A stretch of DNA of 54,962 bases from the NCBI GenBank assembly GCA_020433455.1, contig JAGRCP010000067.1:1-54962 (forward strand), written 5' to 3'. Source of the stretch: Caldilineaceae bacterium. Its GTDB lineage: Bacteria; Chloroflexota; Anaerolineae; Caldilineales; Caldilineaceae. The stretch's first letter is position 1; each line of letters begins with the position of its first letter. The notes under the pieces were generated by a model that worked only from the letters and a program-made list of their open reading frames with translations, did not search any database and was not told the origin of the DNA. This document shows, in pieces, positions 1,079 through 51,386 of the stretch. A program made the position numbers and the translations under genes.

Positions 1079-2329
1079 CTATGCCTCCACCGAAACCCGG
1101 CCATTGACGTGACCATTGACCGGCTCATGTACGTGACCATTGCTCGCGGGCAGACCGCAGAACTGTTCGTAGTCGATGAGTTCGGTGACGGTGGGCGTCA
1201 CGCCGCAGACCGGGCAGTGGGGATCGCGCGCCACGTTCAGGGTGCGGAAACTCATGTCCAGCGTGTCGATCATGAGCAGGCGGCCGACCAGCGGCTCCCC
1301 GAATCCCGCCAACAGCTTGATGGCCTCGATGGCCTGGAGCGAGCCTACAATGCCCGGCAGCACGCCCAGGACGCCCGCTTCCGCGCAGCTGGGCACTTCA
1401 CCCGGCGGCGGCGGATCGGGATAGAGGCAGCGATAGCAGGGCCCGCCTGCTATGCCCTGTTCGGGAATGGGCGGCTGATAGACGGTGACCTGCCCTTCAA
1501 ACATAAAGATGCTGGCGTCAACCAAGGGCTTGCCCAGGAGGCGGCAGGCGTCGTTGACCAGGTAGCGGGTGGGGAAGTTGTCCGAGCCGTTGAGCACCAC
1601 GTCATAGTCGCGGATGATTTCCCGGGCGTTACGGCTGGTGATGGGCTCCCGATAGCCGATAACCTCTACGTCCGGATTGATCGCGTGGAGGCGATCGATG
1701 GCCGAATCGACTTTGGGCCGGCCTACGTCGCTGTTGCCGTGGAGCAACTGGCGCTGGAGATTGGAGAGGTCCACGGTGTCGAAATCGACAATGCCCAGCG
1801 TGCCCACGCCCGCCGCGGCCAGGTACATGGCCGCGGGACTGCCCAATCCGCCGGCGCCGATGAGGAGGACCTTGCTTTCCAGGAGCTTGATCTGGCCCGC
1901 TTCGCCTATCTCGTTGAGCAGCGTATGGCGGCTGTAGCGGATGCGCTGCTCCTCGCTGAGCACAGCCGGGACGGTGAAGGGGTAGCCTGCATTTTTCCAG
2001 CCGTTGAAGCCGCTGATCAGGGAATGGACGTTGCTGTAGCCCATCTCCTGAAGATTGCGCGCCGCCAGCGCAGAACGGACGCCGCCTGCGCAGTAGATGA
2101 CCAGGGGCGTCTCCCGGTCCGGCGCGTGCTGCTCGATCTGCAATTCCAGAAAGCCCCGGGGGATAAAGTGCGCGCCGGGGATGTGGCCCTGAACGAATTC
2201 GTCCCGTTCGCGGATGTCGATGATGGCATAGCGACCGGCGTCCACTTGCGAGGCTAACTCCTGGGGCGCTATTTCGTTGATTTCCCGCCTGGCCAGGGCA
2301 ATGAGCTGATCCCGGGTGAGTCTACTCAC
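1079..2329 (-). CDS. moeB: Rhodanese-ThiF/MoeB fusion: sulfur-carrier adenylyltransferase
   Basis: E1-like enzyme that should adenylate the C-terminal glycine of the carrier encoded just upstream and sulfurate it. A GTG start at 2329 follows GGAGA at the right spacing and gives 416 aa; it overlaps the carrier gene by 8 bp. An earlier in-frame ATG lies inside the carrier gene and is rejected. Residues about 20-120 are a rhodanese domain with active-site C80 (VIYCAGGVRS). Residues about 125-390 are the ThiF/MoeB domain with GAGGLG at 158-163, the RQLLHG arginine motif and two CxxC zinc pairs (CYRC and CPVC). The usual fusion order (MoeZ, MOCS3, Uba4) is ThiF then rhodanese; here it is reversed. 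The C-terminus is a short NGHV-type repeat tail of unknown role. Translational coupling to the carrier supports a shared pathway. Confidence 0.9.
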   Translation of the reverse strand: MSRLTRDQLIALARREINEIAPQELASQVDAGRYAIIDIRERDEFVQGHIPGAHFIPRGFLELQIEQHAPDRETPLVIYCAGGVRSALAARNLQEMGYSNVHSLISGFNGWKNAGYPFTVPAVLSEEQRIRYSRHTLLNEIGEAGQIKLLESKVLLIGAGGLGSPAAMYLAAAGVGTLGIVDFDTVDLSNLQRQLLHGNSDVGRPKVDSAIDRLHAINPDVEVIGYREPITSRNAREIIRDYDVVLNGSDNFPTRYLVNDACRLLGKPLVDASIFMFEGQVTVYQPPIPEQGIAGGPCYRCLYPDPPPPGEVPSCAEAGVLGVLPGIVGSLQAIEAIKLLAGFGEPLVGRLLMIDTLDMSFRTLNVARDPHCPVCGVTPTVTELIDYEQFCGLPASNGHVHEPVNGHVNGRVSVEA

Positions 2330-2624
2330 GGCGATTCTCCGTTCTGTTCGAGCTGCCGCCGGCCATGGCGGGCACGATGGAGATTTTGTCCTTCTCGCCC
2401 ACGGGGGTGGCCAGGCCGTCCAGGGTGCGGATTTCGTCGTCGTTGACGAACACATTGATAAAGCGCTTCAGGTTGCCGTCGTCGTCCAGCAGACGCTCGG
2501 CCACGCCGGGGTATGCCGCGTCAACGGCCTGGATGAGGTCGGCGACATTGGCTCCGGCGACGTCAACTTTGGCCTGACCGCCGGTGAGGCGGCGAATGGG
2601 AGTGGGTACATAGACAGTTGCCAT
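2322..2624 (-). CDS. cysO: Ubiquitin-like sulfur carrier (CysO/MoaD/ThiS family) with masked GG
   Basis: Beta-grasp sulfur carrier of 100 aa, similar in layout to mycobacterial CysO (PTPIRRLTGGQ near the N-terminus, RFINVFVNDDEIR in the middle, ISIVPAMAGG near the C-terminus). The diglycine is at 89-90, but ten residues follow it (SSNRTENRRE). As encoded, the C-terminus cannot be adenylated until this tail is removed. The JAMM peptidase encoded at 3260-3919 is the obvious candidate processor, by analogy with QbsD acting on QbsE. The ATG at 2624 has a GAGGA site 10 bases upstream. The tail is encoded across the overlap with the adenylyltransferase start, so part of it may exist because of the overlap; a conserved tail in relatives would argue against that. 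Confidence 0.85.
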   Translation of the reverse strand: MATVYVPTPIRRLTGGQAKVDVAGANVADLIQAVDAAYPGVAERLLDDDGNLKRFINVFVNDDEIRTLDGLATPVGEKDKISIVPAMAGGSSNRTENRRE

Positions 2625-2662
2625 AACTGGTGATTCCTCGTGAGTCTGGTTGTTCCGTTGAA

Positions 2663-2746
2663 GGTGACTGTATGGGTTTCTCCGGGAGGGTCTGCAGAAA
2701 ACAGGCCGATTCCAGAGGAAAACTTTCCAGAGGTTATACAGTTACC
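2663..2746. repeat. Hairpin element family A, copy 1 (about 84 bp)
   Basis: Ends in an imperfect terminal inverted repeat, GGTGACTGTAT on the left and ATACAGTTACC on the right. It contains the family core CTCCGGGAGGGTCTGC (2680-2695). Related copies lie at about 28056-28140 and 51761-51836. It sits directly upstream of the carrier gene and may contain or displace that gene's promoter. Confidence 0.65.
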
Positions 2747-2770
2747 GTTGAAAAAAACTTGCCTGAAAGA

Positions 2771-5377: not shown

Positions 5378-5473
5378 AGCAAATGAGGCGCGATGCGCGA
5401 CAGAATCCGCCGCGCGTCACGCCTCAACTATTTACGCATCACGCCAATCGTTTGTTCAATGAGGGAGGCGCTT

Positions 5474-10454: not shown

Positions 10455-11546
10455 TTGGCTATCTTGCAGGTCAACGTACGACCCGCAGCGACTTCTCGCT
10501 CTCTCAGTCCTCGACGCGGCGGACAGCTAGGCGAGTTTCACACCCGATTTCGATGGGGAACGTCCCCTGCTACCACATCCATTCAGAAAACGCTGAACTC
10601 CGACTTCTCCCAGCAATCCGCTGCGAACCCGTCATCTACTGAATCAACCGACTGGCAGACCATTGTGTGGAAGCTTATGCCGGGCACAACCGTAGGCCGT
10701 GCGCAGCTTTCTGCAACGCAACGCCTGCGCGAGGCGGGCAGCCCATCCTCTAGTCTGGATGCGCAGCTGCTCTTAGCCCATCTCTACGGCGTGGAGCGCA
10801 GCTGGCTCTTCGCTCATTACGATCACGAGCTTTCCGCCGAGTCGGCCGACGCCTATGCTGAGTTGATTGCTCGTCGCGCCCGCGGCGAACCCATCGCTTA
10901 TCTTGTCGGCCAACGTGATTTCTACGATCTTACGCTGCAGGTCAATGACAGCGTGCTGATTCCCCGCCCCGAGACCGAACTGCTGGTCGATGCCGCGCTT
11001 ACCTATATCGCCCGGCGCGAGCGGACGGTGAAACAGGTGAAGGCGGCCGACATCGGCACGGGCAGCGGCGCAATTGCCCTGGCTGTAGCCCGCCATGCGC
11101 CCAAGGCGCACGTCACGGCCGTCGATATCAGCCCGGCCGCGCTGGAGGTGGCCCGGGCCAATGCCCAGGCTCTGGATCTGACGGAGCGCGTGACGTTCTG
11201 TCAGGGCAATCTGTTGGAGCCTCTGACCGAGCGCGTTCATCTCATCATGGCCAATCTGCCTTACGTCAACGCCAAAGATTACGCTGAGCTGGATCCGGGC
11301 GTGCGCGATTTTGAGCCCGAAACGGCTCTTCTGGGCGGCGCGGACGGTCTGGACCTGATTCGCACCCTGTTAGCTGCCGCGCCTGACTATCTGCTGCCCG
11401 GCGGCCAGATCCTATTGGAGATCGGCTACGATCAGCGTACAGCCGTGACGGCCTTGGCCAACAAGGTTCTGCCCGGTCGTCCCCGCATCGACGTTACCCG
11501 CGATTACGCCGGCCATGATCGTGTTGTTCATATTCAGATGGGATAA
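10455..11546 (+). CDS. prmC: Release-factor glutamine methyltransferase PrmC, with N-terminal extension
   Basis: SAM-dependent methyltransferase that modifies the GGQ glutamine of RF1/RF2. The PrmC helical domain begins near residue 80 (GRAQLSATQRLREAG). IPRPETELLVD links to the SAM fold with DIGTGSGAIALAVA, and NLPY is the family N-(P/L)-P-Y substrate motif. The start at TTG 10455 is chosen because a near-perfect AAGGAGG lies 5 bases upstream and the frame is open throughout. This adds about 74 Ser/Thr/Arg-rich residues compared with typical PrmC. The alternative is ATG 10677 (residue 75), which matches family length (289 aa) but has a weaker GGAAG site very close. The gene follows prfA and has its own promoter. 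Confidence 0.85.
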   Translation: MAILQVNVRPAATSRSLSPRRGGQLGEFHTRFRWGTSPATTSIQKTLNSDFSQQSAANPSSTESTDWQTIVWKLMPGTTVGRAQLSATQRLREAGSPSSSLDAQLLLAHLYGVERSWLFAHYDHELSAESADAYAELIARRARGEPIAYLVGQRDFYDLTLQVNDSVLIPRPETELLVDAALTYIARRERTVKQVKAADIGTGSGAIALAVARHAPKAHVTAVDISPAALEVARANAQALDLTERVTFCQGNLLEPLTERVHLIMANLPYVNAKDYAELDPGVRDFEPETALLGGADGLDLIRTLLAAAPDYLLPGGQILLEIGYDQRTAVTALANKVLPGRPRIDVTRDYAGHDRVVHIQMG

Positions 11547-11567: not shown

Positions 11568-11732
11568 TTGACGCGAGAATCGAAGGGTCTCTGTGCGGGT
11601 ACGGCCACGCCCTGGACCAACCGCCAGGAGCTGCACTACGCCTACGACAACAACGGCAACATCACGGGCCTGACTGATGCCCGCAACAGCGGGCCAGGTG
11701 CAGAGATCATTCGCCAGGTCACGCATTACTGA
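11568..11732 (+). pseudogene. Remnant of an RHS/YD-repeat protein
   Basis: An open frame without a start codon encodes about 54 residues, including TNRQELHYAYDNNGNITG, and ends at TGA 11730-11732. The Y-x-Y-D-x-N-G-N-x-x pattern is the hallmark of YD (RHS) repeats in large secreted or toxin-delivery proteins. Nothing else of such a gene is present: prmC ends 21 bp upstream and the convergent RqcH stop is 15 bp downstream. This is a small piece of a much larger gene left in the spacer, probably by recombination. Frame, composition and the repeat motif support it; the parent gene is unknown. Confidence 0.6.
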
Positions 11733-11749
11733 TTACCCGCTACGTATCA
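11715..11749 (-). repeat. Five tandem stop-codon heptamers at the RqcH 3' end
   Basis: On the minus strand TGATACG, TAGCGGG, TAATCAG, TAATGCG and TGACCTG follow each other without gaps. The first TGA is the actual RqcH stop. Because 7 is not a multiple of 3, the stops fall in all three frames. Similar arrays occur at other gene ends in this window. Confidence 0.7.
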
Positions 11750-13492
11750 TCCTCCGCTCACCGTCTCCGGTCTCTCTGCCGCCACGGTGATGGTCTTTTC
11801 ATTACGCATGGTAACCTGACCGGGCCGTCCGCCGGGCAGGCGCCGCACAAAGCGGCAGTGAGTGACGGCTACATCCGCTGCCCGTTCACCTCGTAAACCG
11901 GAGTGATAGGCGGCCAACTGTGCCGCGGCTTCCAGCGTGGCGTCGTCAGGCTCTGCGCCTCGGCGGCGAATGACTACGTGCGCGCCCGGGGCATTGCGTA
12001 CGTGGAGCCAGATGTCTTCGGGCCGGCTGTAGCGAAAAGTGACGGCGTCGTTCTGGCGTGCGTTGCGCCCCACCAAAATCTCAAATCCGGTCTCGCTTTC
12101 GTAGCGCCGCGGGCCGGAAGGTTTGCCGCCGCCCTTCACTTTTGGTCGTTTCTTCTTGTGCAGCCCCAGCTTGTCCAACTCCCGCTGCACCGCAGCTATT
12201 TCCGGCTGGTTTTCCGCCTCTTTCACATCCACCGACAATTGCGCCAAAAAGGCCTGGTCCCTCTCCACCTGACCGCGGCGACGGGGGATAATCTCGGCCG
12301 CGCGGGCCAGCTTGGCCGCACGCTTGAAGCGGCGCTGGGCCTGTTCGACCGGCGCTTTGTCGGGGTCCAGGCGAATAATCAGCGGCTCTTCATCGCCCAG
12401 ATCGACCGTTAGCTCTGCTTGACGCGGCCGGATTTGGCTGGAGAGTGCGAGGATCCACTCTGCCTCCCGGCGCAGCGCATCCGCCTCACCGGGAGCCGGT
12501 TCGTCCGCGGCCAGGGCGGCCAGTTGACGGGCCAGCTTCTCCTGAGCTGCGGTGATGCGTTTCGCCACAACTGCACGCTGTACGGCATATGCATCGGTTG
12601 TTGTCGCCACGTCCGTGTTATTCGGCGCGAAGCCCGCGTAATAGCGGTAGAGGGCCTCGCTGATGGTGGCCGTGGCGGCAAACGATCCGGTGAAGTGAAG
12701 GACGTAGGGCGCAAATCCCCGGACCGCGTCGCCGTCCGTGATTATGCCGGGCGTCCATCCGCCTTCCCGCACCGGCAGCCAGAGGGCCTGGAGCGCGCTG
12801 ATGAGGGCCGGCAGATCGGCCGCATCCGCGGGAGCGGTCGCATCGCCTCCGGCACGCCAGGCCAATTCCCGGGCCTGGGTAGGGCTGACGCCCGCCACGC
12901 CGTCCAGCAGGGCGCGCCAGAGTTTGCCCGGCTCTGCCAGGACCCGACCAAGCTGCGCGTAGTAATCATCCCGGCCGTCATCTAACGGCGGCAGTTTGTC
13001 TACGGGCGGCGGCGGTGCGTATTGTTGACCGGGCATGAGGGGACGACGTCCCTCACCCGGGCGGACGCGGTGAAGAGCGTCCAGAATGCGTCCTGTTGCA
13101 TCCGTCAGGAGCAGGTTGGCCATGCGCCCCATAGGCTCAAAAATGAGGGTGGTCGAGCCGGCTTGCGGATGATCGAAGCGAAGCGCCAGCACCCGCTCCG
13201 TGGGATCCGGCTGATCAATGGCGGTCAGGCGCGCGCCGCGTACATACTTGCGCAGAAGGAGCAGGAGAGGAGGTTGCGCGTCAAGGCCCCGGCGCAGCTT
13301 TTCCGGGACGAGGCAGGCGTAACTCGCCTGGCGATCCGCCGAGAGCAGCAGGTAGCGACGCGTTTGCCGGGCATAAATCTCCAGCCCCACGCGCTGGGCA
13401 TCCGTCATGATTACCTGCTGCACCCGTCCATCCGGCAGGGCGGTGCGCAATTCGGCGGTCAGGCACGCCAGGGTTAAGGCATCAAAGTGCAA
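11747..13492 (-). CDS. rqcH: RqcH (NFACT family) ribosome quality-control factor
   Basis: NFACT protein that binds obstructed 50S subunits and recruits tRNA-Ala to add alanine tails to stalled peptides. TTG 13492 is chosen because GGAGG lies 6 bases upstream and the resulting start HFDALTLACL fits the family opening (F-D-x-L); a further TTG at 13510 would add six residues. Length is 581 aa. NFACT-N covers about 1-260 with FEPMGRMANLLLTD, the middle is helical, and the C-terminal NFACT-R (DUF814) domain contains EILVGRNARQNDAVTF and WLHVRNAPGAHVVIR. The conserved DR pair (D97-R98 in B. subtilis) appears as E99-R100, a conservative change. The gene converges on prmC, and its stop lies in a heptamer array. 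Confidence 0.88.
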   Translation of the reverse strand: MHFDALTLACLTAELRTALPDGRVQQVIMTDAQRVGLEIYARQTRRYLLLSADRQASYACLVPEKLRRGLDAQPPLLLLLRKYVRGARLTAIDQPDPTERVLALRFDHPQAGSTTLIFEPMGRMANLLLTDATGRILDALHRVRPGEGRRPLMPGQQYAPPPPVDKLPPLDDGRDDYYAQLGRVLAEPGKLWRALLDGVAGVSPTQARELAWRAGGDATAPADAADLPALISALQALWLPVREGGWTPGIITDGDAVRGFAPYVLHFTGSFAATATISEALYRYYAGFAPNNTDVATTTDAYAVQRAVVAKRITAAQEKLARQLAALAADEPAPGEADALRREAEWILALSSQIRPRQAELTVDLGDEEPLIIRLDPDKAPVEQAQRRFKRAAKLARAAEIIPRRRGQVERDQAFLAQLSVDVKEAENQPEIAAVQRELDKLGLHKKKRPKVKGGGKPSGPRRYESETGFEILVGRNARQNDAVTFRYSRPEDIWLHVRNAPGAHVVIRRRGAEPDDATLEAAAQLAAYHSGLRGERAADVAVTHCRFVRRLPGGRPGQVTMRNEKTITVAAERPETVSGG

Positions 13493-13632
13493 GATTTCCC
13501 TCCAAGACAATTTTACGTCATCCGTCCCTATGCTATGATCTTACCATTGTGGCTCCTTTTCCCCGAAAAGAAAGGCAAAAGCCGTGCGGCGGAAGGAAGA
13601 AAATCTACGTTTGTTCAAGGCGATTCAACGAT

Positions 13633-15722: not shown

Positions 15723-15831
15723 TACGAATCTGGCCCTTGAAGTGTACCGCCCTTCCGTCATGCTGGGGGCGAGCCGGCCACGCGGCCGACTCGTCAGACA
15801 GACAGTCACCCTGCATGAAAGGAAACCCATT

Positions 15832-17523
15832 ATGGTACGCAAACGCTTTTCCCCTCGTCTCATCAGCCTGATCTCGTTACTGGTCATGTTTGTATTCAGC
15901 GCCTGCGCGGCCCCGGCAGCTTCACCGGCCCGGGACGCCGCCGCGTCCCAACCGACGTACCATGCGCCTACGGCCATGGAAGCGCCCGCCGCGGAGGAGT
16001 CCGCCGCGAGCGCGGAATCGGCGGCAGAATCGGCAACTGACGGCATTCCGCCCCAGCCGCCCAGCGCCATGTTCTTCGATAATTACGGCGTCAACGGCTT
16101 TGTCGATGCGAGCCAGGACAACCTCTCCACCTTCGGCGTGGATGTGGACACGGGCAGCTACACGGTCATGCGCAGCTATATCACCGACGGCTGGCTGCCG
16201 CCCGCGGACGCGGTGCGCGTTGAGGAGTTCGTTAATTACTTCGATTACGACTATCCGCTGCCCAGCCGGGATGAAACCTTTACCATTGTCGCCGATGCCG
16301 CGCCGTCGCCCTTTACGGATCGACCCACCCGCCGCATCATGCGCGTCGGCATCCAGGGCTATGACGTACCGGCGGACCAGCGGCGGGATGTGGCGCTCAC
16401 CTTCATCATCGACGTCTCCGGCTCGATGGACTACGAGAATCGTCTGGGGCTGGTCAAGCGGGGCCTCACCCTCCTCACCGAACAACTGCGGCCTACCGAT
16501 TCCGTGGCCATCGTGGTCTACGGGACCAACGCTCGCCTGGTTCTGCCCATGACGCCCCTGGGCGAAAAAGATGCCGTCCTGAACGCCATCCGCTCCCTTC
16601 ATGCTGAGGGCTCCACCAACGCCGAAGCGGGACTGCTGGTCGGCTATCGTCACGCCTGGGAGAACTTTCGACCCGAAGCCAACAACCGCATCGTTCTGGC
16701 CTCCGACGGCGTGGCCAACGTGGGCGTAGTTGATCCGAACGGTATCCTGCGCACCATCCAGGAGTATGCCGGGCAGGACCTGACCCTGACCACCGTGGGC
16801 TTCGGCATGGGCAACTACAACGACGTGCTCATGGAGCAACTGGCCGACAACGGCGACGGCTTTTACGCCTATGTAGACACCATCGACGAAGCGCGCAAGC
16901 TCTTTGTGGAAGACCTGGCCGGAACCATTGAGACCATCGCCATGGATGCCCGCGTCCAGGTCGAGTTTAATCCTGCAGCGGTGGCGGGTTATCGCCTGGT
17001 CGGTTATGAAAATCGGGACATGGCCGATGATGATTTCCGCAACGATGAGAAGGACGCGGGCGAGATCGGTTCGGGCCATAACGTCACCGCTCTCTATGAG
17101 CTGGAATTGCGCGGGCCGGAAGATGAAGCTGTCGTCCTCAGTGTTGATGACCATGCGACCGGCGATGAGTCGGCTGCCTTCGGCGACGGCGTTCTGGCCG
17201 TGGTGCGCTTTCGTTGGCGAGACCCCCGGAGCGGGCAGGTGACGGAATTGGCCCATGAATTGACCGGCGCTGAAATGGCCGGCGCCTTTCCCCAGGCCGA
17301 TCCCGGCTTCCAGCTTGCCGTGGCCGCGGGCGCTTACGCCGATGTTTTGCGTCAATCTCCCTGGGCCGTGGGCCTGACGCCGGGCGAAATTCTCCCCGTG
17401 GCCGAAGAGGCCCGGTTCGCCCTGACCGCGGCCGGACGCGACCGTGATGAGGTCACGGAACTGGTGGACCTTATTTGGTCAGCCGATGAAATGTGGAGCC
17501 GCGCCCGCGGTTCTACCGAATAA
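15832..17523 (+). CDS. YfbK-like von Willebrand factor A lipoprotein
   Basis: Secreted lipoprotein of 563 aa. The signal peptide ends at lipobox Cys25 (FSAC). A low-complexity Ala/Glu/Ser linker runs from about 30 to 70, then the YfbK N-terminal region (FGVDVDTGSYTVMRSYI) and a VWA domain with a complete MIDAS: DVSGSM, the Thr of STNAEAG and the Asp of ASDGVANVG. The C-terminal YfbK domain (formerly DUF3520) ends the protein. ATG 15832 follows AAAGGAA; an earlier ATG at 15742 would destroy the signal peptide. The function of YfbK proteins is unknown; the metal site suggests adhesion or protein binding at the cell surface. A hairpin terminator follows. Confidence 0.85.
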   Translation: MVRKRFSPRLISLISLLVMFVFSACAAPAASPARDAAASQPTYHAPTAMEAPAAEESAASAESAAESATDGIPPQPPSAMFFDNYGVNGFVDASQDNLSTFGVDVDTGSYTVMRSYITDGWLPPADAVRVEEFVNYFDYDYPLPSRDETFTIVADAAPSPFTDRPTRRIMRVGIQGYDVPADQRRDVALTFIIDVSGSMDYENRLGLVKRGLTLLTEQLRPTDSVAIVVYGTNARLVLPMTPLGEKDAVLNAIRSLHAEGSTNAEAGLLVGYRHAWENFRPEANNRIVLASDGVANVGVVDPNGILRTIQEYAGQDLTLTTVGFGMGNYNDVLMEQLADNGDGFYAYVDTIDEARKLFVEDLAGTIETIAMDARVQVEFNPAAVAGYRLVGYENRDMADDDFRNDEKDAGEIGSGHNVTALYELELRGPEDEAVVLSVDDHATGDESAAFGDGVLAVVRFRWRDPRSGQVTELAHELTGAEMAGAFPQADPGFQLAVAAGAYADVLRQSPWAVGLTPGEILPVAEEARFALTAAGRDRDEVTELVDLIWSADEMWSRARGSTE

Positions 17524-17550: not shown

Positions 17551-17615
17551 AGCGTGACTCGTAACTCGTGGCGGAGTCTATCACGCATCGCGAGTTACGA
17601 GTTACGTATTTTTTT
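17551..17615 (+). terminator. Terminator after the VWA gene, built of heptamers
   Basis: The left arm around GTGACTCGTAACTCG pairs with the right arm CGAGTTACGAGTTACG, and a run of seven T follows. The left arm reads as heptamers TGACTCG and TAACTCG. On the minus strand the right side reads TAACTCG, TAACTCG, CGATGCG and TGATAGA (17604-17577), all in register. Confidence 0.7.
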
Positions 17616-35591: not shown

Positions 35592-36069
35592 CTCCCTGTT
35601 TCCCCCTTGATCTAGAAAAACGTGGCTGAAATAATGTTGGGATTTACGCGTTCCGAGCTTGGCGAAGGATGAAAAATCCGGCTTCGACAGACAGTACCCC
35701 AAGCCTGCCGAAGGGCTCAGTCAACGCCGACTTGCGTAATTCCTGAATGTGCTCCAATCGGATGGATCGGTCATGCAAACGTAACGATTTACGCTTTGGG
35801 AAAGAATGGACTCGTTGCCGGACGTTGGGGTACTGAATCTGCTGTTCGCTGTTGCCGGATCATGGCGGATTCCGGTTACAGGAGGGTTACGTCCTGCGTC
35901 TATCCGCGTATGTTACACATCAATCTATTGCATTGCGATTGTCGGCGCGTTGCGCGCACGTTGTGAGGGCGTGGGAAAGGAGCAAGCGGGCTCTCGCCGG
36001 GGAGAAAATGCCGGGATGAGCAGAGTTTATATGGTTAGCGGGTGCGTGAATATTTGATGCGTGATGGAC

Positions 36070-36090
36070 TCCGGCACGCATCACGTATCA
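36070..36090 (-). repeat. Heptamer array and hairpin at the wax-ester synthase stop
   Basis: On the minus strand TGATACG and TGATGCG are in tandem, and the first TGA is the gene's stop codon. TGATGCGTGATG (36055-36066) pairs with CATCACGTATCA (36079-36090), so the stop codon lies inside a hairpin. Confidence 0.6.
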
Positions 36091-37491
36091 CCCGCCGTCT
36101 ACCGCTTTCTGCAGGCGGCGCAGCAGCGCGGCGAACTCTGCCGTGAAGGCCGTGGTGATCGCCTCGGGGTCAGGAACGAGGCCCGCGTCGGTGATGACGC
36201 CCAGCATCACTTCGCCGTCGTAGCTCAGAATGCTGATGCCCATCCCCAGCCGCCCCGATTGGGGTACCCAGAAGGTCATGCGTTCGATACGGCTGCCCGC
36301 CAGGTAGAGGGTTTGGCGCGGACCGGCCACGTTGGTAAATACGGTCGTGGCCCGGGAGGCGAAGAGGTTGACCACCTGCTCTTCCACCGCCTGGGGCGTG
36401 TGGCCGAAAAGATTAAGCAGGCTAAAGAAGATGACCGCCTCCGGCGATTCCTTGAGCGCGTTCATGCGCGCGCGTACCGTGACCAGGCGTTCCAGGGGAT
36501 CGGCCGTGCCGATGGGCAAGGACAGGAAGACCAGGCCGAAGTCGTTGCCCAGCTCGAAGGCCTTGTCGGGCGCGCGCAGGTCCACCGGCAGGACGGCGCG
36601 GATCTCCAGCCCATCGGCCGGGGCTTCGTGCTCCAGCAAATAGCGCCGCAGCGCGCCCGTTGTGAGATCAACCAGGATGTCGTTGATCTTTACGCCGCAA
36701 AGTCCGGCCGCCAGCTTCACGTCCGCCAGGTCCAGGGGCGCGGACCACGCGACTCGTTTCTGCACGCCCAGCTTGCCTTTGAAGGGCGTATCGGGGTCGG
36801 GTGGAAAGGCCAACATGCGGGCCACAATTGCCGTGCTGTCGGCGGCAACTTCGGCCCGCTGGAGGAAGTGCGTAGGATGGAGTACGCTTTCGACGCCTTC
36901 GTAAAGCAGAGTGCGGGAAAGGGAAAAGACGCCTTTTACCGGCTTTAGTACGGAGCCGACCAGGGAAGTTTCCTCCCGGTTGCGCGGATGCGCAGCGTCC
37001 TGCGCGGGGGCCTCCGGGTTGCGTTCCGTATCCATGAGGCGATACATGACGTAGTTCATGGCCGTGCCGTCGCCCATGCAGTGGTGGAAGCGCAGGACCA
37101 TCGCGCTGCCGCCCATGACGTTGTCAACCAGATGGGCCTGCCACGGCGATTTGGAAAAATCGACGGGCGTACTGGCCAGGTCGCTGAGCAGCATCTGCAA
37201 CGCGGCCTTATCGCCCGGCTCAGGGAGGGCGATGTAGTGGAGATGGGCATCCAGATCAAAGTTTGGGTCACTCTCCCAGTAGGGCATCGCGCCGGGCCGG
37301 CGCGCCTCCGTCACCTTCATCCTGAAGCGGTCCATGCTCAGTAGGCGCTCCTCGACTGTGCGGCGGAAGCGGGCGCGGTCCACCGGCTGGTCCAGAATGG
37401 CCAGACCGGTGACCATCATCAGATTGGTGGGGTCCTCCATGTGCAGCCAGGCCGCGTCCACGCCGCTCATAACCTTTTTTTGAATGCTCAT
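36088..37491 (-). CDS. Wax ester synthase/diacylglycerol acyltransferase (WS/DGAT family)
   Basis: Acyltransferase of 467 aa. The active-site HHxxxDG motif is HHCMGDG at 136-142. GVKINDILVDLTTGALRRYL carries the conserved ND pair, and VFTNVAGPRQTLYLAG is the C-terminal family marker. The enzyme transfers an acyl group from acyl-CoA to a fatty alcohol or diacylglycerol to make storage wax or triacylglycerol. ATG 37491 follows AGGAG. It could draw on the acyl-CoA pools handled by the neighbouring catabolic genes. Substrate preference cannot be read from the sequence. Its stop codon lies in a heptamer array. Confidence 0.88.
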   Translation of the reverse strand: MSIQKKVMSGVDAAWLHMEDPTNLMMVTGLAILDQPVDRARFRRTVEERLLSMDRFRMKVTEARRPGAMPYWESDPNFDLDAHLHYIALPEPGDKAALQMLLSDLASTPVDFSKSPWQAHLVDNVMGGSAMVLRFHHCMGDGTAMNYVMYRLMDTERNPEAPAQDAAHPRNREETSLVGSVLKPVKGVFSLSRTLLYEGVESVLHPTHFLQRAEVAADSTAIVARMLAFPPDPDTPFKGKLGVQKRVAWSAPLDLADVKLAAGLCGVKINDILVDLTTGALRRYLLEHEAPADGLEIRAVLPVDLRAPDKAFELGNDFGLVFLSLPIGTADPLERLVTVRARMNALKESPEAVIFFSLLNLFGHTPQAVEEQVVNLFASRATTVFTNVAGPRQTLYLAGSRIERMTFWVPQSGRLGMGISILSYDGEVMLGVITDAGLVPDPEAITTAFTAEFAALLRRLQKAVDGG

Positions 37492-37671
37492 CTCCCCTGC
37501 TCCTTTTGTTCCTCTTCGATCGACAGCGTACAGGAAAATCAATCGGGTATATTGGCGCAAAGCGCCTGCTGCGCAAGCAAAATCGGTTGACGCTCGATGA
37601 GCGGCTGCAAGGGCGCGTCCCTATCGACCCAGCTCGTTTTGGACACGCCTGTATTTGATATCGAGATACAA

Positions 37672-37689
37672 CTTTTCACACATTACGCG

Positions 37690-37699
<10 letters not shown>
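37672..37699 (-). repeat. Four tandem heptamers at the ABC exporter 3' end
   Basis: On the minus strand TAATGCG, TAACGCG, TAATGTG and TGAAAAG are contiguous. The TAA of the second unit is the gene's stop. The other units carry stops in the other two frames. Confidence 0.65.
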
Positions 37700-39534
<1,835 letters not shown>

Positions 39535-39648
39535 AGAAGTCTTTCGTCTGTAATTGGTGACAGGGAATTGTGTCACGGATTCTATATGGTTTCGAAACAT
39601 TGTGCGAATTATGCAGGCTGTCGCTCGCGTCTGGACCGGGATCGGGCG

Positions 39649-40555: not shown

Positions 40556-40597
40556 CAGCCCGGAGCAGCCTTATCTGACTCCCGGCCCGTGAATATG

Positions 40598-40645
40598 TGA
40601 CGCGTGATGGATTTTCTGGACCATATATTCACGGGTCACGCATCA
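40598..40645. repeat. Heptamers on both strands after the RTX-like gene
   Basis: Plus strand: TGACGCG and TGATGGA (40598-40611). Minus strand: TGATGCG, TGACCCG and TGAATAT (40645-40625), contiguous. CCCGTGAATAT and ATATTCACGGG flank the region as an inverted repeat. Confidence 0.6.
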
Positions 40646-40662
40646 TCCTCTAACATTTCTTT

Positions 40663-40712
40663 AATCTGTAACCGAGATTCTTCTACGTTGAATCCCGGTT
40701 ACGGATTTTTTT
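40663..40712 (+). terminator. Rho-independent terminator
   Basis: AATCTGTAACCGAGATTC pairs with GAATCCCGGTTACGGATT with two mismatched positions, and a run of T follows. Confidence 0.75.
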
Positions 40713-46714: not shown

Positions 46715-46732
46715 TCAATCACGCATCACCTA
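46715..46732 (-). repeat. Heptamer pair at the epimerase 3' end
   Basis: After the TAG stop and one G, the minus strand reads TGATGCG and TGATTGA in tandem. The three stops fall in different frames. Confidence 0.55.
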
Positions 46733-47725
46733 TTCCTGCTCATGCCAGGCAGCCAGCAGCGCTGCTTCCCGTTCGGGCGTGAGACCAGCGTTCATGGGCG
46801 TGTCGGCCGGGCGGGACTGGGCCCAGGCCAGCGTGTCGCGGATTGTCTCCGCCAGCGGACGAAAGGTCAATCCCGCGGCAAACGCTTTGTCACAGACGGC
46901 GCGCTGCATATCCAGAGCCGATTCGGGCAGCCAGAGGGGCATCTCCACATAAGGACCGACCTCATGCGCCGTCAGAAAAACCTCGTCCACCCAGGTCAGA
47001 GTCGATCCGGACTCAGGGTCCACCGTCTCCCGACACGCCTCCAGGACCGCGCTTATGGTCAGGGGGTAATCCGGCCCGGTGGCGTTGTAGATCCCCGTCG
47101 CGCCCGCTTTCACCATGCCTACGGTCCACTCGGCCAGATCGCGCACGTCGATGATCTGCACCGGCGCGTCAGGCTGCCCCGGAGCCAGAATCTCGCCGCT
47201 CCGGGCCATGCGCAGCGGCCAGTAGGTGAAGCGGCCGCTCTGGTCGTCCGGCCCGACGATGAGCCCCGGCCGGATCACAAGCGTGCGGCCGGGCATGGCC
47301 GCCTCCGCCGCCTCTTCGCACAGCGCCTTGAGCCCGCCGTAGGTCTCGCCGGTCACCGTTTCCACGCTTGCATCTTCCAGACGATGGATCGGCGCCTCTT
47401 CATCCATGGCGAGTGATGTCCCCCATAAATAGACTGAAATCGTGGAGATGAAGCAGTAGAGATCCACCGAATCGGCCAGAAAGCGCGCCGATGCGTCCAC
47501 CTGGCGGGGGAGATAGCCGCAGGTGTCAATCACTGCATCCCAATGGCGGCCGTCCAAGGTGCGCAAACCCCCGTCCCGGTCGCCCTGTAATTTCTCCACC
47601 TGGGGAAAGAGGTTGGGATTGCTCTGCCCGCGGTTGAAGAGCGTGACGTTGTGGCCCCGGCTTAGAGCCGCGTCCACCAGATGCTTGCCCAGAAAGCGGG
47701 TCCCGCCCAAGATCAGTAGGTCCAT
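46730..47725 (-). CDS. NAD-dependent epimerase/dehydratase-family protein
   Basis: Extended-type SDR of 331 aa. The cofactor motif LILGGTRFLGKHL is at the N-terminus, followed by LFNRG (basic residue for NADP or NAD). WDAVIDTCGYLPRQV and YCFISTISVY contain the active-site strand, and YGGLKALCE provides Tyr and Lys of the catalytic pair. IDVRDLAEWTV is a family marker. This branch resembles plant chloroplast RNA-binding/epimerase-like reductases whose substrates are unknown. The ribosome-binding site is weak (GGAA). The next gene upstream starts more than 90 bp away. Confidence 0.82.
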   Translation of the reverse strand: MDLLILGGTRFLGKHLVDAALSRGHNVTLFNRGQSNPNLFPQVEKLQGDRDGGLRTLDGRHWDAVIDTCGYLPRQVDASARFLADSVDLYCFISTISVYLWGTSLAMDEEAPIHRLEDASVETVTGETYGGLKALCEEAAEAAMPGRTLVIRPGLIVGPDDQSGRFTYWPLRMARSGEILAPGQPDAPVQIIDVRDLAEWTVGMVKAGATGIYNATGPDYPLTISAVLEACRETVDPESGSTLTWVDEVFLTAHEVGPYVEMPLWLPESALDMQRAVCDKAFAAGLTFRPLAETIRDTLAWAQSRPADTPMNAGLTPEREAALLAAWHEQE

Positions 47726-48854: not shown

Positions 48855-48914
48855 TTGATACGTGGTGCGTGATTGGCAGCGAACGTTTGCCTCCAATCAC
48901 GCACCACGTATCAA
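48855..48914. repeat. Perfect 22-base inverted repeat made of heptamers
   Basis: The arms at 48855-48876 and 48893-48914 are perfectly complementary around a 16-base loop. From its second base each arm reads TGATACG, TGGTGCG, TGATTGG outward to inward. It lies after DUF1761 and before DUF488, both on the minus strand, where it can act as a terminator. Confidence 0.75.
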
Positions 48915-48947
48915 AAACCAATTACATGTATTCTCCAGGAGCCCCAA

Positions 48948-51245: not shown

Positions 51246-51386
51246 CTTAAAATTTTCAGGTTCTTGCGGAATTCATGCGGTCCGTTTTCTGCAACGCGGT
51301 GCGCTACGGCGCGCCTTCGCGCATCAATCACCTGCGTGAAATTCGGCTGGACCAATTTTTACAAACTTTTCGGAGGAAATTCAACC

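Follow-up and report, generated by a model that had tools for sequence, protein, structure and literature searches.

In the draft genome of a Caldilineaceae bacterium and in its relatives, many genes have a hairpin built from heptamers, mostly stop-bearing ones, that begins at their real stop codon or close to it. We read them as a genome-wide class of fast-evolving, heptamer-armed palindromes at gene 3' ends that would act as a stop ladder and a REP-like hairpin at once, a reading in which our confidence is evenly balanced. Their layout, that is, a one-way polarity and a place at gene ends, is established in the sampled data.

The window, by which we mean the whole stretch of 54,962 nucleotides analysed here, is contig 151 of a draft genome of 5.25 Mb (G000). 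The statistics cover ~1.75 of these 5.25 Mb, 0.4 Mb of a genome of the same family (G020) and short pieces of G054; a further genome, G014, belongs to the same genus as G020. The genomes are drafts, in which genes were called with a home-made gene caller.

Heptamer sites in the window

The initial annotation had described tandem heptamers at seven places in the window, four of which were said to contain or directly follow a real stop codon. Direct reading of the letters confirmed the heptamers at all seven places, and comparison with the open reading frames confirmed the association with stop codons at four of them. A ladder at 11715-11749 on the minus strand reads TGATACG TAGCGGG TAATCAG TAATGCG TGA. 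ORF 11747-13510 (-) ends on its first rung, and four more stop triplets follow at exactly +7, +14, +21 and +28, which makes five stop triplets spaced 7 nt apart with different letters between them. A second ladder at 37672-37699 (-) reads TAATGCG TAACGCG TAATGTG TGA, and there ORF 37690-39600 (-) has its stop in the TAA of the second rung. At 36090-36070 (-), ORF 36088-37560 is terminated by the first TGA (36088-36090); the hairpin at this site, GTGAATATTTGATGCGTGA...CACGCATCACGTATCA, spans 36046-36090, and the element model discussed below matches at 36021-36096. At 46715-46732 (-), the stop TAG of ORF 46730-47725 (-) is followed by TGATGCG TGATTGA, out of 7-nt register with the stop.

The remaining three sites (17553-17606, 40587-40673 and 48855-48943) are palindromes ~30–90 nt past a stop. 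The heptamer hairpin at 17553-17606, CGTGACTCGTAACTCG...CGAGTTACGAGTTACG and then TATTTTTTT, lies 29 nt past the stop of ORF 15742-17523 (+). The palindromic copy at 40587-40673 (+) matches the ~125-bp element model and has heptamers in both arms, with its tract 86 nt past a stop. The third site contains the hairpin TTGATACGTGGTGCGTGATTGG...CCAATCACGCACCACGTATCAA at 48855-48914, adjoined by a degraded ISL3-type end, GGCTCCTGGAGAATACATG on the minus strand, that runs to 48943. Folding of several arrays as hairpins had also been claimed, and hairpins were indeed found at 17553-17606, 36046-36090, 40598-40645 and 48855-48914. Two copies had escaped the initial annotation: an element-core copy at 5383-5444 (+; E 2e-9), and a copy at 51259-51348 (+) with a reduced core and an end that matches the 29-nt ISL3-type pattern GGTTCTTGCGGAATTCATGCGGTCCGTTT exactly.

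TRF picks up only two weak arrays at these places in the window, because the heptamer units are degenerate. Rfam gave 0 matches at the gathering threshold in the window, and a plasmid search with part of the window returned gene-type matches only. The window also holds a 35-bp tandem repeat of 2.2 copies (10740-10817) and a perfect 13-bp double, TTTGCCAATCAAA (2772-2797).

Excess of period 7 and spread among genomes

The tracts are more frequent than expected from composition. The pattern TRAYRCGTRA has 63 spacer matches in G000 versus 4.05 in dinucleotide shuffles, and only 16 of its 88 matches fall in coding DNA, which makes up 83% of the sequence. Likewise, the 17-mer TRAYRCGTRAYRCGTRA occurs 37 times in G000 versus 0 for the reversed pattern. 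Spacers contain 56 period-7 arrays in G000 and 69 in G020, versus 0 in shuffles of either genome, while periods of 5, 6, 9, 10 and 11 give 0–3 arrays in G000 spacers. With this period-7 excess and their mostly intergenic position, the tracts are heptameric simple sequence repeats (STRR/SSR). The next most frequent period in G000 spacers, far behind, is 8, with 21 arrays versus 0 in shuffles. Long, perfect, stop-free arrays of ACCTGCC/GGCAGGT were also seen in G000 (C104:97389-97511, C85:1039-1103 and C164:15200-15240), some of which end a few nt from a start codon.

The same 17-mer is scattered widely. It was counted 1133 times in Desulfococcaceae HSG8 (a 6 Mb genome), 491 times in an Anaerolineales bacterium (H5_CFX5) and 284 times in a Bacteroidetes MAG, and its distribution within the family of G000 itself is patchy. 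Desulfococcaceae bacterium HSG8 (loci L098, L131 and L166) also carries very long arrays of the TGATGCG/TGAAACG type.

Polarity and folding of the hairpins

A search of spacers for inverted repeats with arms of at least 14 bases found period-7 arms in 42 hairpins of G000 and 36 of G020. The 3' arm is the reverse complement of the 5' arm, and the unit sequence varies from site to site while the layout stays constant. Among these 78 heptamer hairpins there are 37 distinct consensus units, including TGAAGAT, TRAYRCG, AATGAGG, TAGTGCG, TGATTCG and GATTGGT.

Across these units the orientation is nearly invariant. The stop-rich strand forms the 5' arm at a ratio of 38:1 in G000 and 33:1 in G020, compared to 33:26 and 28:14 for the other hairpins of the same spacers. 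A third set, consisting of 118 named loci fetched by the TRAYRCG pattern from many phyla (Anaerolineae, Bacteroidetes, Nitrospirae, Desulfobacterales, Acidobacteria and others), gave 31:1 for heptamer hairpins versus 19:17 for other hairpins. With the three sets pooled, the C-poor, stop-bearing arm is the 5' arm at 102:3, versus 80:57 for other hairpins (combined p 1e-26). Polarity persists at 27:1 and 12:1 when the stop of the gene lies upstream of the arm, and is therefore not produced by the gene boundary or by the calling of gene ends. In addition, where TRAYRCGTRA is accompanied by an inverted 8-mer, the latter lies on the 3' side in 56 cases and on the 5' side in 0.

The base composition is equally one-sided. 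G exceeds C in the 5' arm at 40:1 with 1 tie in G000 and at 34:0 with 2 ties in G020, or 74:1 with 3 ties in total, and the C content of the 5' arm is only 7% and 11%, respectively. Some heptamer hairpins have no sense stop at all, as with the units GGCAGGT, GAGATTGG and CGTGTTG. The predicted stems are strong, with medians of -35.4 and -48.7 kcal/mol and folding z values of -8.0 and -7.2 in G000 and G020, respectively.

Placement at gene ends and stop register

The initial annotation would have been refuted by an equal density between divergent 5' ends, a check that it passes. Among spacers of 40–250 bp in G000 and G020 together, heptamer hairpins occupy 52 of 573 tandem and 16 of 123 convergent spacers, but 0 of 68 divergent spacers. 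In G020 alone, 25 of 114 tandem spacers of this length contain one (about a fifth). The usual site is between the stop codon of one gene and the ribosome-binding region of the next. The median distance from the facing stop codon is 8 nt in G000 and -0.5 nt in G020, compared to 30 and 22.5 nt for other hairpins; from the end of the heptamer hairpin to a facing start codon the median is 30 nt, and this distance is seldom below 14 nt.

These placements past stop codons and the strong stems would also suit intrinsic transcription terminators of the ordinary kind, with stems that by chance consist of heptamers. T-rich tails do occur at some sites, such as 17553-17606 in the window, and in Xanthomonas, quadruplex-forming repeats coincide with transcript starts or stops more often than a control set does (PMC4692102). 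However, at least 5 T within the 8 nt past the stem were found at only 21% of the sites in G000 and 17% in G020, close to the 15% and 13% of other hairpins, and the ~30 nt before the next start in tandem genes leave little room for a new promoter. We rejected the terminator class on the T-run counts, and consider a terminator origin of the hairpins improbable. With strong predicted stems, uncommon T tails and, between tandem genes, ~30 nt left before the next start, the sites agree better with a REP-like hairpin, intercistronic or at a 3' end, than with a classical terminator.

Among arrays that carry sense stops in each of the three frames, 12 of 14 in G000 and 12 of 14 in G020 have the stop codon no more than 20 nt away, whereas 3.5 and 2.8 would be expected from uniform placement of arrays within the same spacers. 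Stop-free sense arrays lie this close in only 3 of 15 and 3 of 26 cases, a contrast that follows in part from hairpin polarity, as sense-strand stops are absent from the 3' arm. Over the full set of genes whose spacer measures 45 nt or more, 67 stop triplets were counted at +7 and 67 at +14 from the real stop in G000, where neighbouring offsets give 26.5 and 35.2 (Poisson p 3e-11 and 1e-6); the corresponding counts in G020 are 30 and 29, versus 8.0 and 12.0. This says that rungs of the ladder serve as the genes' own stops. The peaks are compatible with ladders growing out from the stop codon as well as with ladders that came to lie upstream of a pre-existing stop. In the hairpins alone, stops upstream of the arm are in no special register with the arm. 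Seeding of arrays by the stop codon was thus not upheld from the hairpins alone, whereas the genome-wide ladder test was positive.

Two syntenic sites compared between G020 and G014, a small sample, bear on how the ladders arose and on the turnover of their units. In one shared spacer, G020 has a TAATGCG hairpin where G014 has a different period-7 tract, TATTGGR; at the second site the stop codon is conserved and the tract starts 3 nt later.

Relation to ISL3-type elements

An iterated profile search showed that many TRAYRCG tracts are the core of an imperfect palindrome of ~125 bp. The element model has 54 places at E<1e-3 in 1.75 Mb of G000, and 87 at E<1, of which 1 lies in coding DNA and 86 outside. 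The consensus of the element ends in GGCTCTTTYGGAATTCATGYGG, and the resident ISL3 element on contig C117 ends in GGCTCTTCCGGATCTCATGTGG and GGTTCTTTCGGAATCGATGTGG; 18 of 22 positions are equal between the element ends and either end of the latter. ISL3-type end matches in G000 number 22, versus 0 in a reversed control. At C18:14664 a copy is flanked by a perfect 8-bp target duplication, ATAGATGA. Of the six copies that have both ends it alone shows a perfect duplication, and over the six, matches are only weakly in excess (permutation p 0.037). Judged by these ends, part of the TRAYRCG copies in G000 look like cores of ISL3-type MITEs, most of them decayed.

This raises the question of whether the tracts are simply decayed ISL3-type MITEs. 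The ~125-bp consensus with its ISL3-like ends, the 22 end matches, the perfect duplication, the 86 of 87 model matches outside coding sequence and the presence of an ISL3 transposase gene all speak for it. Yet, only 11 of the 42 heptamer hairpins of G000 overlap model matches, as do 44 of 79 tracts, and even these figures can only be too high, since the heptamer core is part of the model. Model-overlapping hairpins are farther from stops, with 3 of 15 distances of at most 10 nt versus 27 of 38 for the rest, and the non-overlapping hairpins of G000 keep their polarity at 27:1. The G020 hairpins that were inspected have no ISL3 end, and the other units are unrelated in sequence. As a sole explanation, ISL3-type MITEs are refuted by the hairpins that are not MITEs, and we regard the view that the tracts are nothing but decayed elements as very improbable.

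The only sizeable ISL3 transposase lies at L281:1412-2797 (G000 C117) and is broken into two ORFs that overlap, 1426-2127 and 2124-2756 (-); it may therefore be inactive or need a frameshift. Short elements without heptamer cores at G000 C47:50448-50630, C68:39642-39787 and C169:7135-7310 have inverted ends of the GGYTCTCTGA- or GGTTCTTTCGGATC-type and perfect 8-bp duplications, and from these sequence features we assign them to further putative ISL3-type MITE families. Four identical 29-nt ends, GGCTCTTTAGGAATTCATGTGGTCGGCAT, at G000 C51:7757, C53:13332, C93:21944 and C109:9816 suggest a MITE that spread recently.

Comparison with known repeats

The initial annotation knew of no description of stop-bearing heptamers as gene-end cassettes. 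This is partly wrong: heptamers near stop codons are known from Xanthomonas and stop-bearing TAACTGA repeats from Beggiatoaceae, but the strict one-way layout across many different units looks new. Our text search of the literature for TRAYRCG repeat sequences gave no relevant match, and no paper on such repeats in Chloroflexi was found.

Rehm et al. (2015; PMC4692102) described G-rich heptameric repeats, GGGAATC in Xanthomonas and GGGGA(C/T)T in Nostoc, of which the Xanthomonas heptamers lie close to or overlap stop codons and have inverted pairs. Both these repeats and our tracts have period 7, are intergenic with few copies between divergent genes, are found on the coding strand at no more than 50 bp from a stop codon in most cases and overlap it in some, and differ in length and sequence between related species; many of those in Xanthomonas form inverted pairs in convergent orientation (PMC4692102). 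In contrast, the units of Xanthomonas and Nostoc can form G-quadruplexes, and inverted pairs are few in Nostoc (PMC4692102), whereas our tracts have many units, mostly stop-bearing and mostly without G-tracts, and the real stop is often a rung. The units of Xanthomonas and Nostoc are also stop-free, which for GGGAATC was read from its sequence. Units of the GGGGACT and GGGGATT kind (ACTGGGG- and AATCCCC-type) do occur in G020; the unit in the window is TRAYRCG.

MacGregor (2015; PMC4679880) reported TAACTGA direct repeats in marine Beggiatoaceae, where translation of the repeat meets stops. They resemble our tracts as stop-bearing, intergenic heptamers scattered over distant phyla, but consist of a single invariant unit, lie mostly just upstream of starts and have no predicted hairpin (PMC4679880). 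Identity with these repeats was rejected, as the units here are others and the hairpins end a median 30 nt before the starts. The P6b stem of the Nostoc trnL intron has heptanucleotide arms with units TDNGATT or NNTGAGT (PMC4476775). It likewise has degenerate heptamers on both strands of the stem and alternative units that substitute for each other, but it belongs to a group I intron of a tRNA gene and not to the ends of protein genes (PMC4476775).

The REPs of E. coli have been reported to lower translation of the upstream gene when no more than 15 nt separate them from a stop codon (RepRanger paper, PMC12306157). REP/BIME sequences are also intergenic palindromes, some of them within 15 nt of a stop codon (PMC12306157); however, REPs share sequence motifs, while the hairpins here share a layout only. 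With so many distinct units, the hairpins do not form a single REP/BIME consensus family. An origin from RAYT/REP was rejected as well, since neither of the two Y1_Tnp matches in G000 has TRAYRCG nearby. ISL3-family MITEs resemble a subset of our tracts, in their length of ~125 bp, their ISL3-like terminal inverted repeats and the 8-bp target duplication of one copy, but most heptamer hairpins lack ISL3-type ends.

Selection for stops or by-product of composition

The anatomy of a gene-end cassette was largely borne out by the placement, the polarity and the +7/+14 stops, while stops as its purpose are unproven. Permuting the heptad phases of the 5' arms leaves 85.5 stops (sd 6.3) versus the 94 observed in G000, and 65 (sd 7) versus the 103 observed in G020, so that the stops of G000 lie within the range set by arm composition while those of G020 lie above it. 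Permuting the letters within each unit leaves 21.3 units (sd 2.3) with a sense stop, versus 29 of 37 observed, although the units are partly related and hence are not 37 independent cases. A phase-by-phase comparison of conservation between TRA and the other positions was swamped by chance pairs. A rule that the 5' arm is rich in G describes the data no worse than a rule of stop-bearing arms, and also covers the stop-free hairpins. Moreover, the stop-free Xanthomonas unit is similarly placed, and the stops may therefore be partly a by-product. Selection for stops in the 5' arm is possible but unproven.

Polymerase slippage is the usual idea for why heptamers are the favoured length of tandem repeats in the genomes of many bacteria. 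Possibly the palindromes are neutral: arrays would arise anywhere by slippage and survive where they are harmless, chiefly past stop codons, and palindromes would form by template switching. The stops of the 5' arm would then be a by-product of C-poor letters and of duplications that span the stop and leave the protein unchanged. The stop-free heptamers of Xanthomonas (PMC4692102), the 74:1 excess of G over C that includes the stop-free cases, the small difference between 94 and 85.5 stops in G000 and the fast turnover of units between G020 and G014 are all consistent with this explanation. On its own, however, neutral slippage leaves unexplained both the polarity of the palindromes and their preference for the stop end within a spacer, and the number of sense-stop units exceeds the permuted value, with the reservation that the units are partly related. 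Neutral slippage alone is a possible but rather unlikely account.

A further reading is a widespread, sequence-independent gene-end device, in which the 7-nt spacing is kept for three-frame stops ahead of a hairpin and unrelated units in several phyla have converged. If true, such a device would halt ribosomes leaving the gene in any frame before they melt the 3'-end hairpin. We consider this doubtful.

Possible function and implications

Our preferred reading, of fast-evolving palindromes that combine a stop ladder with a REP-like hairpin, would work as follows. With TAA, TAG or TGA every 7 nt, as is usual in the 5' arm, stops occur in all three frames within 17 nt. In the mRNA, ribosomes would end at the first in-frame rung, and those that slipped or read through would be halted at the next rungs before opening the stem. 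The stem itself may act much as a REP does, at a 3' end or between cistrons, by fixing where the 3' end of the upstream cistron lies or how stable that cistron is, and by keeping it apart from the following one. The arms would arise and be replaced through 7-nt slippage and copying across the palindrome, and in G000 some of the TRAYRCG copies seem, in addition, to have spread as cores of the ~125-bp ISL3-ended elements.

The polarity and the +7/+14 register offer a handle on these questions, as they point either to mutation that is directional relative to gene ends or to selection for stops plus a stem. Since about a fifth of the tandem spacers of 40–250 bp in G020 are occupied, any function of these palindromes would touch many genes of these little-studied bacteria.
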